Below are positions 39,837 to 42,925 of a stretch of 64,000 nt of DNA, piece after piece (the first letter of the stretch is position 1; every line of letters starts with the position of its first letter). The position numbers and the translations under genes were made by a program. The DNA is from Secundilactobacillus angelensis. GTDB lineage: Bacteria > Bacillota > Bacilli > Lactobacillales > Lactobacillaceae. The stretch covers positions 62,001 through 126,000 of the forward strand of contig NZ_JAAXLJ010000003.1 in NCBI RefSeq assembly GCF_012641075.1. Direction: 5' to 3'. The notes beneath the pieces are model-generated. The model did no database searches and was not told where the DNA came from. It saw only the letters and a list, made by a program, of their open reading frames with translations.

Positions 39837-39848
39837 TCATTACATTGC

Positions 39849-39948
39849 AATATGAAGTATAGTTCATATTTTGAATTATTTTTGCGGAATATGAAGTATA
39901 CTTCATATTTTATGGAAAATCTTAATAATGTGAAGTATACTTCATATT
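39849..39948. promoter_or_regulatory. Array of three 22-bp palindromes at 39-bp spacing
   Basis: Copies at 39849-39870, 39888-39909 and 39927-39948, all with core TGAAGTATACTTCA (first copy has one arm mismatch, third copy one outer mismatch, middle copy perfect). Centres are 39 bp apart both times. The third abuts the GAGGTG ribosome-binding site of the DUF4143 ATPase gene. Probably operators for a dimeric repressor, perhaps cooperative; the binding protein is not identified. Confidence 0.75.
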
Positions 39949-39959
39949 GAGGTGATACC

Positions 39960-41162
39960 ATGATTGAACGACCGGAATATTTAGAACAGTTAATTAGGTT
40001 GAAAGATAACGATATGATTAAAGTGATCACCGGTGTCAGAAGGTCTGGCAAGTCTGTATTACTCATGTTGTATCGTGATTATTTGTTAGCCCAGGGAATT
40101 ATAGACGAAAACATTATCTATTATAATTTTGAAAGTTTAGAAGTTCTCAATGTTAGGGACGCAGATCAGTTGAGAGATTTGCTATTGAGTAAATTAAAAA
40201 AAGGCGTCCATCAATATGTGATGTTAGATGAAATTCAAATGGTTGCGGAATGGCAACAAATCGTGAACGCTATTAGGGTGAGTTATGATTGTGATATTGT
40301 CATTACTGGCTCAAACGCCAAAATGCTATCTGGCGAATTGGCTACTTTACTTAGCGGTAGGTATGTTGAAATTAGAATCTATCCGTTTTCGTTTAAAGAA
40401 TATCTTGCTGCAATTGGTGTTGATAAGGACTCTAATCAAATTTCCAAGGCTTTTGACAACTTTGAACGATTTGGGGGGTTCCCAGCAGTAGTATTGAGTG
40501 GTCAAACAATAAAAGATACCATGCTTCAAGGAATATCAGATTCCATTATTTTGAACGATGTGGCCACACGAGCGAATATTCGAGATGTGGAAACTCTGAA
40601 AGCGCTAGTCAGCTTTCTAACTGATAATATCGGCCAGCTTGTTAATCTGACGAAGATTGCAAACACCTTGAAGAGTGAAGGTATCAACACCAACGTTCAT
40701 ACGTTAGAAAATTATTTGACTGCACTTGAGAACGCGTTTCTGTTCTACCGAGTTCGACAATATAATATTAGGGGCAGAGCGTACTTAAAGACCTCTGGCA
40801 AGTACTTTATAGTGGATCCTGGCTTGAGACGCATTGGTATCAGTAGGCGTCCCGGAAATTTTGCGGGGCAATTAGAAAATATTGTGTATATCGAACTGTT
40901 ACGGCGTGGTTATGCTGTAGATGTGGGAAAGATTGATCAGCAAGAAATCGATTTTGTTGCGAGAAAAAGTGAAGATCTCAGATATATTCAAGTTACCTAC
41001 GAATTACCGCAGAATACTCATGAAACAGATAACTTGCTGAAAATTACTGATAACTACAAGAAAACGCTGATTACACAGCAATACTATCCTGATATTAAGC
41101 TGATTGATGGGGTTGAGGTTGTTAATGTAATGGACTGGTTGTTAGACGATGAGCGCTATTGA
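39960..41162 (+). CDS. AAA-type ATP-binding protein with DUF4143 domain
   Basis: 400 residues. N-terminal P-loop ATPase: Walker A GVRRSGKSV at 25-33, Walker B VMLDEIQ near 81, ITGSNAKMLSGELATLLSGRY (sensor-like), then RIYPFSFKEYL. The C-terminal half is the DUF4143 region with a restriction-endonuclease-like core (VDVGKIDQQEIDFVA). These proteins are scattered, sometimes in many paralogues, across Firmicutes and Bacteroidetes; function is unknown, with defence or mobile-element links often suspected. It is a single-gene unit between the palindrome array and a terminator. Confidence 0.85.
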   Translation: MIERPEYLEQLIRLKDNDMIKVITGVRRSGKSVLLMLYRDYLLAQGIIDENIIYYNFESLEVLNVRDADQLRDLLLSKLKKGVHQYVMLDEIQMVAEWQQIVNAIRVSYDCDIVITGSNAKMLSGELATLLSGRYVEIRIYPFSFKEYLAAIGVDKDSNQISKAFDNFERFGGFPAVVLSGQTIKDTMLQGISDSIILNDVATRANIRDVETLKALVSFLTDNIGQLVNLTKIANTLKSEGINTNVHTLENYLTALENAFLFYRVRQYNIRGRAYLKTSGKYFIVDPGLRRIGISRRPGNFAGQLENIVYIELLRRGYAVDVGKIDQQEIDFVARKSEDLRYIQVTYELPQNTHETDNLLKITDNYKKTLITQQYYPDIKLIDGVEVVNVMDWLLDDERY

Positions 41163-41196
41163 ATCGCGTATGGACAAGCAGAAAGTATCTAGAATG

Positions 41197-41245
41197 GTGC
41201 AAAAAACCAGACTTCCCTTTCTAATAGGGAAATCTGGTTTTTTTG
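41197..41245 (+). terminator. Terminator after DUF4143 gene, right copy of a flanking repeat
   Basis: AAAACCAGA/TCTGGTTTT and TTCCC/GGGAA stems with seven T residues; resembles the hairpin at 39784-39836. Confidence 0.75.
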
Positions 41246-41260
41246 AATTTCACATTGTTC

Positions 41261-41545
41261 TTAAGAAACCGGACTAAATTGAATAGTTAATCGTTGATTA
41301 GTTGCCTGGGCAATCTCAGATAACAGCCTAGTCGAAGCATTCATTGAGCCATTTTCAATTCTAGCAATAGTCGATTGAGGTTTACCAACTAGACTAGCAA
41401 AATCACGTTGACTCATCCCCATATTTTCTCGTAGCTCACGTACTTTAACCGCAACCTCTAGGTTAATATTTTCCTGCTCAACGAGTTTTGCAAACTCAGG
41501 ATTGTTTTTACTTCTTTCAGCTACATACTCATCAATTTTACTCAT
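41261..41545 (-). CDS. HigA-type XRE antitoxin, orphan
   Basis: 94 residues. Residues about 30-85 form an HTH (VRELRENMGMSQRDFASLVG, STIARIENG) preceded by an N-terminal segment typical of HigA-like antitoxins (SKNNPEFAKLVEQEN). GGAG precedes the ATG 41545. Upstream, overlapping by 4 nt (ATGA), is what looks like the tail of its toxin gene, without a start. So the antitoxin seems to have outlived its toxin. Confidence 0.8.
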   Translation of the reverse strand: MSKIDEYVAERSKNNPEFAKLVEQENINLEVAVKVRELRENMGMSQRDFASLVGKPQSTIARIENGSMNASTRLLSEIAQATNQRLTIQFSPVS

Positions 41546-41839: not shown

Positions 41840-42925
41840 TTACTTATACCGGTGCAACTGATTCAACGCCTCACGCTGTTGCGTATCAATAATATGCGTA
41901 TAGAGTCCAGTAGCTGACGTTGAGCTTTGGCCCAATTGCGTGGCTACCAAATGTTCATTTTTTGTCTCCAGATACAATTTAGATGCTAGGGTATGCCGCA
42001 ACTTATGCGGCGTGATCCGCACATGGTTGAAGGCAGTTGAATACTTAGCTACTAACAATTCAACCGTCGCTGGTGTAATTCGGCGGGGCTCAGCCGTACT
42101 CTTGGTTAGAAACAGTGCCGGTGTTGCGGCAGTGGCGTGGTAACGTGACTGGCGGATGCGCACGTAGCTCGCAATATAGGGCAGCACCCATCGAGCAATT
42201 GGCACCGAATCCCACTTACCGCCTTTACGTCGAACGGTCACATTGGCCGTTTTCAGACTGAGGTGGCCAACATCCATGTTCGTCAGCTCAGAAACCCGAA
42301 TACCCGTTCCCAGCATCAGCGCGTTAATGGCCACGTCCCGCTCTCGGTCACGCTGATAATAGCGCAACCGCTTGGCATCCAGCTGCTGACCATACTCATC
42401 CTGAATGAAGTTCAAGTAAGCCTTATCCTGATCACCTAACATCAACTGATCTTTAATGTGGCTGGCACGGGTAGCGTAGGTTTCATTATCTTGTACCAGC
42501 GAAATTTTTTTCATCACGTTGCGGTAAAAATAGGGTTCGCCGTCACTATTTTCCGATTCAGCGGTTAGGAAGCGAAACAGTGCTGATAGGGCGTTTAACG
42601 ACCGGTTAACTGTGCGGTGGGATAACGCGCCTTGCGGATGTTGAGCCGTCTGCTTACCCCGGTTCAACAAGTAGGATTTGTAGAGTTCAACATCTTGCTT
42701 TTTCAGATGTTCAAGCTCCTTTAAGCCAACTTGTTTAATCGACTTAGCAGGGGACACGCCAGCTTCAATCAGCCATTCAAAGAACCGTTTAAATTCGTTT
42801 AGATACTGATACAAGGTGGCCGGTGATAAGGGCACAGCAGATTTAGCTAAATAGTAGTCACCAACGTAATCTGGCAGCTGGGCGACTAGTTTTTCATTGT
42901 GGGCAACATAGGTGGCTTGATCCAC
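41840..42925 (-). CDS. xerS: XerS-type tyrosine recombinase
   Basis: 361 residues. N-terminal SAM-like core-binding domain (about 20-160), catalytic domain with Arg in GTGIRVSEL, Lys in RRKGGK, HKLRH in ITPHKLRHTLAS, and the Tyr in ATGLYTHI. Length and N-terminal layout match the single-recombinase XerS of streptococci and lactobacilli, which resolves chromosome dimers. xerC is also present at 62 kb, so both types are encoded. GTG 42925 follows AAAGGAGG. An SOS-like box overlaps its presumed promoter. No phage genes adjoin it. Confidence 0.85.
   Translation of the reverse strand: MDQATYVAHNEKLVAQLPDYVGDYYLAKSAVPLSPATLYQYLNEFKRFFEWLIEAGVSPAKSIKQVGLKELEHLKKQDVELYKSYLLNRGKQTAQHPQGALSHRTVNRSLNALSALFRFLTAESENSDGEPYFYRNVMKKISLVQDNETYATRASHIKDQLMLGDQDKAYLNFIQDEYGQQLDAKRLRYYQRDRERDVAINALMLGTGIRVSELTNMDVGHLSLKTANVTVRRKGGKWDSVPIARWVLPYIASYVRIRQSRYHATAATPALFLTKSTAEPRRITPATVELLVAKYSTAFNHVRITPHKLRHTLASKLYLETKNEHLVATQLGQSSTSATGLYTHIIDTQQREALNQLHRYK

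Follow-up and report, generated by a model that had tools for sequence, protein, structure and literature searches.

What is known about the systems that most resemble a common prokaryotic ATPase with repeated palindromes before its start codon? The protein family itself is listed by PADLOC as the phage defence candidate PDC-S01, described as an ATPase joined to a PD-(D/E)xK-like part and reported as the fourth most common defence across prokaryotes, with 29,494 bacterial and 9,986 archaeal systems detected (PMC12988326); validation is said to be pending for most such candidates, and we saw no statement that S01 was validated and no mechanism for it. Self-repression through repeated palindromes is known from dedicated defence regulators such as RptR, which represses its own promoter through three palindrome-containing repeats overlapping the -10 (PMC12255303), and from toxin-antitoxin operators. 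Many archaeal Orc/Cdc6 genes, which combine AAA+ and winged-helix parts, have diverse origin recognition boxes next to them, with several such pairs per genome (PMC3528665). STAND NTPases (NLR, CED-4/Apaf-1, and archaeal SSO1545/PABY2304) share an NTPase-winged helix fold and include known immune sensors. We describe here a locus of Secundilactobacillus angelensis, and its relatives, in which genes of this very common, uncharacterized putative defence ATPase tend to carry their own private DNA sites over their own promoter; the letters of the sites follow a few amino acids in the protein's own DNA-reading helix, so that the protein most probably binds and controls its own gene.

The analyzed window, a 64,000-nucleotide stretch of a 2.6-Mb genome, contains three 22-bp palindromes whose centres are 39 and 39 bp apart, separated by unrelated 17-bp spacers, the last abutting a ribosome-binding site. 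The observation made in the initial annotation, three near-identical and evenly spaced palindromes before a DUF4143 ATPase gene, is confirmed. The features of the locus are as follows.

39847 to 41255, no strand: cassette (sites, gene, and terminator), absent at the same place in two congeners, which have about 40 bp there
39849 to 39870, no strand: palindrome P1, AATATGAAGTATAGTTCATATT, one arm mismatch
39871 to 39887, no strand: 17-bp spacer 1
39888 to 39909, no strand: palindrome P2, AATATGAAGTATACTTCATATT, perfect, overlapping a possible -35 (TTCATA from 39902)
39910 to 39926, no strand: 17-bp spacer 2, with a possible -10 (AATAAT) at its 3' end, up to 39929
39927 to 39948, no strand: palindrome P3, AATGTGAAGTATACTTCATATT, one arm mismatch, abutting the ribosome-binding site
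39949 to 39955, plus strand: ribosome-binding site GAGGTGA, read from the sequence
39960 to 41162, plus strand: AAA_14-wHTH-DUF4143 ATPase of 400 aa (PADLOC PDC-S01), with its ATG at 39960
40584 to 40817, plus strand: winged-helix domain, residues 209-286, read by us from the secondary structure of the model
40689 to 40703, plus strand: residues 244-248 (T N V H T) at the start of the recognition helix; H247 is the column best associated with the site letters
41207 to 41245, plus strand: intrinsic terminator of the cassette (core stem 41213-41231)
41264 to 41545, minus strand: XRE-type HTH gene, present in two congeners that lack the ATPase cassette and possibly part of a toxin-antitoxin pair with the sequence upstream of it
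41843 to 42925, minus strand: tyrosine recombinase XerS (NCBIfam equivalog), which places the cassette near a chromosome dimer resolution gene

Could the array be a chance feature? The upstream region reaches 106.2 in an array score built for the family, against a maximum of 52.3 in 300 dinucleotide shuffles. Within the window alone, a search allowing up to 3 mismatches found 7 matches against a mean of 3.2, which says little. In the whole genome, TGAAGTATACTTCA with up to one mismatch occurs only at these three places; with up to two mismatches there are 22 places in all against 16 for the reversed control pattern (i.e., little above chance). The gene product matches Pfam AAA_14 (E=3.5e-33) and DUF4143 (E=1.1e-19), matches the PDC-S01 profile over residues 1-397 of 400 (E=2.4e-151), and is single copy in this genome at E<=0.001; its nearest named hit is from S. 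yichangensis, at 98% protein identity. NCBIfam returned no match for the ATPase, a sequence search of the PDB gave four matches (best E=0.03), and Rfam gave only two matches, both far below threshold. The Walker A and B residues G25, R27, R28, G30, K31, D90, and E91 are each present in at least 310 of 312 aligned proteins. An active PD-(D/E)xK nuclease has an acidic pair plus a catalytic lysine, and this lysine is missing from its usual place: E306 (310/312), D331 (303/312), and Q344 (310/312) are near-invariant, but position 346 is S/T/A/C in 302 of 312 proteins, with no lysine among its six commonest residues, although a lysine moved elsewhere was not sought. This is an unusual conserved site.

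How general is this layout? The initial annotation had proposed searching this and related genomes for the motif, asking whether it always precedes DUF4143 genes at 39-bp spacing; it does not, as pairs of TGAAGTATACTTCA were found in only 1 of 15 genus genomes, which led us to examine geometry instead of letters. The best 80 of 199 relatives found in genome contigs, from Bacillota, Bacteroidota, archaea, and others, showed different inverted repeats just before their start codons. Inverted arms 9-11 bp from the dyad centre are perfect over 8 bp in 46-51% of 78 of these upstream regions, against 2.6-3.9% of 310 other ORF upstreams and about 3% of shuffles. Sixty more Lactobacillaceae copies were added to the loci of the search itself, from the 72 of 397 family genomes with a match (E<=1e-20), and showed arrays like that of the window with other letters, including TGGAAGTATACTTCCA, TGCAGTATACTGCA, TTTCAGTATACTGAAA, ATCGATTATAATCGAT, and GGAGTTAACTCC. 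In a first scoring, 139 of 251 genes, not thinned by identity, exceeded 95% of shuffles. With two scores together, 109 of 163 relatives (less than 80% identical) have such an array or dyad, against 11 of 217 other genes of the same loci and 2 of 326 shuffles; the other 54 relatives gave no call, and some have other layouts, such as nested repeats or, in loci L152 and L258 (L numbers denote the loci collected here), long direct repeats before the gene instead of inverted ones. The unit is a half-site, a 16-18 bp spacer, and the inverted half-site. In Lactobacillaceae each half-site usually also forms a palindrome, hence the 39-40 bp period, while many Clostridia and Bacteroidales have the bare dyad.

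We next asked whether copies within one genome share their sites. In 20 genomes searched whole there are 1 to 18 copies each. Among 24 genomes with two or more copies that gave a call, 86 of 87 within-genome paralog pairs have different cores; the exception is a pair that is 98% identical, and two more pairs differ only by a one-base shift (a third copy in the genome of the exception, L235, has the same letters shifted by one base). The genome with 18 copies gave nine calls, all different. The genome map behind these counts was compiled by hand, and some of its site calls are doubtful (L146 by eye looks like ATCGAT). Occurrence of the motif at random genomic places, which the initial annotation had named as the observation that would overturn its reading, was not what we found: in addition to the window's own three sites, two other site types searched in whole genomes sit almost only before their own gene. 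TATTCCGAAAA-n-TTTTCGGAATA occurs in 6 of the 8 genomes examined, once and just before the family gene in five of them and twice in one, where the extra copy is a promoter-like piece without an intact family gene behind it. TTTCCCAAA-n-TTTGGGAAA occurs once in 5 of 9 genomes, each time just before the family gene by position. This one extra site, at positions 1390-1460 of locus L375, is a second copy of the L201 promoter dyad without an intact gene behind it, about 5 kb from the intact copy (a solo site or remnant); positions 1480-1700 of L375 hold a roughly 200-bp stretch with long complementary ends, perhaps a small mobile repeat or structured RNA.

Which protein reads these sites? The AlphaFold2 model of the window protein (mean pLDDT 93.5) has a predicted AAA+ part, a winged helix (helices 210-222 and 230-239, recognition helix 246-258, wing 262-284), and a nuclease-like end. 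When genes are sorted by site letters, the start of the recognition helix sorts too: TN(V/A)HT with TGAAG, (S/T)NHT with GGAAG, SPHT with TGCA, S-x-NT with TTTCAG, DT with TCGAT, and NKT with TTGGAG, and then in the dyad group TNDKT with GCGAAA, TNHKT with GGGAAA, ITDKT with TCGGAA, and NHVT with TGAAAG. Exceptions exist in the full list (KDT once with TCCCTC, HNT with TGTTAA, PNT with TCTCAA, and FET with TTAGAC, i.e., A and not C at idx5), and a subfamily with a longer loop just before the recognition helix (L219, L317, L333, and similar) still fits H247 with TTGCA in some members (L219 and L333) but not in others (L318). The same residues nevertheless meet the same core in some distant proteins: S-x-N-T with TTTCAG at 28-38% identity, including an archaeal gene, NKT with TTGGAG at 40%, and DT with TCGAT at 49%.

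This link was also examined statistically. In 92 genes, with global identity controlled, site similarity correlates positively with the winged helix (partial r 0.20) but not with the AAA (-0.14) or nuclease-like part (-0.09), and the 12 best 9-residue windows all start between 225 and 268; the recognition helix taken alone (243-258), however, gave a partial r of 0.082 in this partial Mantel test, below the largest of 300 permutations (0.120). Over 3839 column-by-base pairs in 74 representatives, residue 247 with base idx5 is first (z 8.2), and column 247 leads in total (27.5, next 18.1), with H-G in 9 of 9, K-G in 11 of 15, R-G in 2 of 2, N-T in 8 of 9, Q-T in 3 of 3, P-A in 5 of 6, and a weak acidic class, D/E-C, in 8 of 17. 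In 66 disjoint nearest pairs, change at 247 goes with change at idx5 (19 of 25 against 5 of 41; table rows 36, 5 and 6, 19; p 2.2e-7) and with change at idx6 (p 1.5e-7), the two best places of 2124. Some columns outside the winged helix also reach z 6-7.7 (W393, V95) in the column-by-base analysis, and the nearest-pair analysis has such columns at p about 1e-5, so shared ancestry inflates the background. An earlier covariation run (74 genes, summed weight 41) ranked H247 first only when summed over site positions 4-8, with single pairs elsewhere scoring higher. On held-out plasmid and viral loci the fixed code hits 7 of 10 scorable loci (expected 3.5, p 0.012), most of the 41 loci kept having given no scorable site.

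The gene sets behind these tests were filtered as follows. The earlier covariation run left out 8 of 82 genes by eye as poorly called sites; the partial-correlation analysis left out a hand list of 22 genes with doubtful calls and 23 duplicate loci; and the column-by-base analysis added dyad genes only at a score of 11.4 or more (65 of 107 with any dyad, 133 genes having been tried). Two loci fetched twice (L222 = L060 and L201 = L057) stayed in the sets of 92 and 157 genes, while the representatives of the column-by-base, nearest-pair, and 163-relative analyses were thinned by identity. The thresholds 54 and 11.4, the favoured T at half-site position idx9, and the letter classes H/K/R-G, N/Q-T, P-A, and D/E-C were all read from these data, so these last three analyses are not blind; the held-out test used them fixed. 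That test left out loci at 65% or more identity to the training set and redundant ones (41 kept of 87 aligned), and 4 of the 77 viral loci were too short or lacked upstream DNA. Those 77 came from a profile scan of the viral contig collection, in which two scans with single proteins had found no relatives. Reading by eye of 14 plasmid and phage loci was kinder than the automatic scoring, which counts L292 as a miss and gives no call for L283 and L285.

Where do the sites lie relative to the promoter? In 92 array-type genes, TATAAT-like hexamers peak about 10-12 bp before the centre of the last palindrome (25 seen, 6.3 expected); the two largest peaks (38 and 39) are the palindrome cores themselves, which resemble a -10. 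In 65 dyad-type genes they peak about 27 bp after the dyad centre (36, expected 3.5), so that the right half-site would lie between -35 and -10. At the family level, then, the sites overlap the likely core promoter, as autorepressor operators do, though this rests on consensus matches only. In the window the candidate -35 lies in P2 and the -10 ends at P3, but this match (9 of 12; 7 promoter-like sites in the region against 5.6 in shuffles) is not by itself above chance. A bound protein would cover the promoter, and repression of its own gene is the simplest reading.

Our preferred explanation, held with reasonable but not full confidence, is that the array is the gene's own private operator. 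In this view, the AAA+/STAND-like ATPase binds the half-sites (here AATATGAAGTA) with its own winged helix, residues 245-247 reading the core, as a dimer or larger oligomer on half-sites paired across a 17-bp spacer and across each palindrome. Because the sites overlap the likely -35, -10, and start of transcription, binding would most likely repress the gene and keep this putative defence ATPase at a low, self-limited level until nucleotide state or an unknown trigger changes occupancy. Across the family the geometry is kept while letters and reading residues change together, so that copies, including most paralogs in one cell, would be insulated from each other. The geometry, its enrichment, the genome-wide privacy in the cases tested, the covariation with the winged helix, and the family-level promoter overlap come directly from the data, whereas binding, the oligomer, repression, the trigger, and the defence role are inferences: binding rests on covariation alone, and neither transcription, the sign of regulation, nor protection against phage was measured. 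The interpretation in the initial annotation, a dedicated operator array for this gene, is supported, with the correction that it is the geometry that is general, while the letters are private to each gene and follow the protein's own recognition helix. A cognate site that can be read from the sequence of about two thirds of the copies examined gives a direct assay (binding, reporter, and knock-out) and a way to predict partner sites from three residues; it also suggests how many paralogs can share a cell, and offers a natural set of orthogonal repressor-operator pairs with a simple code.

How does this compare with the systems described above? RptR is a dedicated small repressor with a conserved short palindrome, whereas here the ATPase itself would be the binder and the site differs from gene to gene. 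For PDC-S01, no description of cognate sites, a winged-helix code, or self-regulation was found; searches on DUF4143, COG1373, PDC-S01, guilt-by-embedding, phage defence candidates, and orc/cdc6 origins, which reached few subscription papers, returned no cognate sites for this family, those on PF13635 and on AAA_14 with inverted repeats returned nothing, and the papers listed for PF13173/AAA_14 were unrelated. The model aligns to the STAND-type structures 2qen (Z 18.3, rmsd 3.4, 263 aligned) and 2fna (Z 17.4, rmsd 3.9, 265 aligned) and to NLR/CED-4 chains (Z about 15-17), a fold match only, oligomerization not having been examined; the winged helix here appears to read specific DNA, and there are no sensor repeats in the 400 residues. 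Unlike the Orc/Cdc6 boxes, the sites lie on the likely core promoter with a fixed 16-18 bp spacer, and the protein has an extra C-terminal DUF4143 part. What appears new is a defence-candidate ATPase as its own diversifying, private DNA binder.

Other explanations were considered, and we regard each as unlikely. Operators are usually bound by dedicated repressors, and the XRE-type protein encoded just downstream of the ATPase might be the regulator. However, a tblastn search with that protein (E<=1e-3) against 110 loci (L006-L115, flanks up to 1.5-2.5 kb) hit only the window's own locus and the two copies of the S. yichangensis locus, and the XRE gene is present in the two congeners that lack the cassette; other kinds of neighbouring regulator were not searched for, but a common regulator would not explain why site letters follow the ATPase's own recognition helix. 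Alternatively, the ATPase and its array may form, or derive from, a replication initiator and its origin, the palindromes being loading sites rather than, or besides, an operator. Consistent with this, the order AAA+ then winged helix is the same, Foldseek and VIA list Orc1/Cdc6 bound to origin DNA (2qby, 2v1u), several paralogs each with private inverted boxes parallel the orc/cdc6-adjacent origins, and homologs occur on plasmids. Yet the STAND-type folds rank higher, the sites sit on the likely core promoter, 6 of the 12 plasmid records opened have a replicon type assigned, and the cassette is absent from two congeners; there is no evidence of origin function, which was not assayed.

The private site might also be an immune target or incompatibility tag, such that the protein detects a second copy of its site on an incoming plasmid or phage with a related cassette, the promoter site being the safe, occupied self copy. 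Private, diversifying sites among paralogs in one cell, the STAND-like fold, relatives on plasmids and phage-collection records, and the site without its gene in one genome are compatible with this idea, but no exact copy of two tested arrays (that of the window and GGAAGTATACTTCC pairs) was found in the viral contig collection, and the nuclease-like part lacks the catalytic lysine at its usual place. Least likely is that the repeats act as RNA hairpins (attenuator or terminator) or are a chance feature of AT-rich promoters. Inverted repeats near start codons often are hairpins, flanking terminators exist, and 11 of 217 other genes pass the same score. However, if the -10 peaks mark the promoters, left half-sites and P1/P2 lie upstream of them and are not transcribed; the spacing is fixed while the letters change; only 5% of control genes and 0.6% of shuffles pass; and no Rfam match came near a gathering score. 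A more far-reaching reading, which we consider doubtful although it is not excluded, is that PDC-S01 is a family of self-addressed immune ATPases whose winged helix has a nearly one-residue-one-base reading code. New copies would diversify residues 245-247 and their promoter sites together, so that many orthogonal copies coexist in a cell, and the private site would serve both as operator and as an identity tag by which a copy tells its own cassette from an incoming one.

We regard the cassette as mobile. The stretch 39847-41255 is replaced by about 40 bp in the two congeners, with matching flanks, and the hexamer ACATTG flanks both of its ends, which may be chance or a small duplication. Only 2 of 15 genus genomes have a match at E<=1e-20, and a class-wide search found relatives at E<=1e-60 in 5 of 398 Bacilli genomes. 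Relatives lie on 18 phage-collection records and on 230 plasmid records, of which 173 are Acinetobacter; neighbours in some of the opened records are Fic proteins and recombinases.
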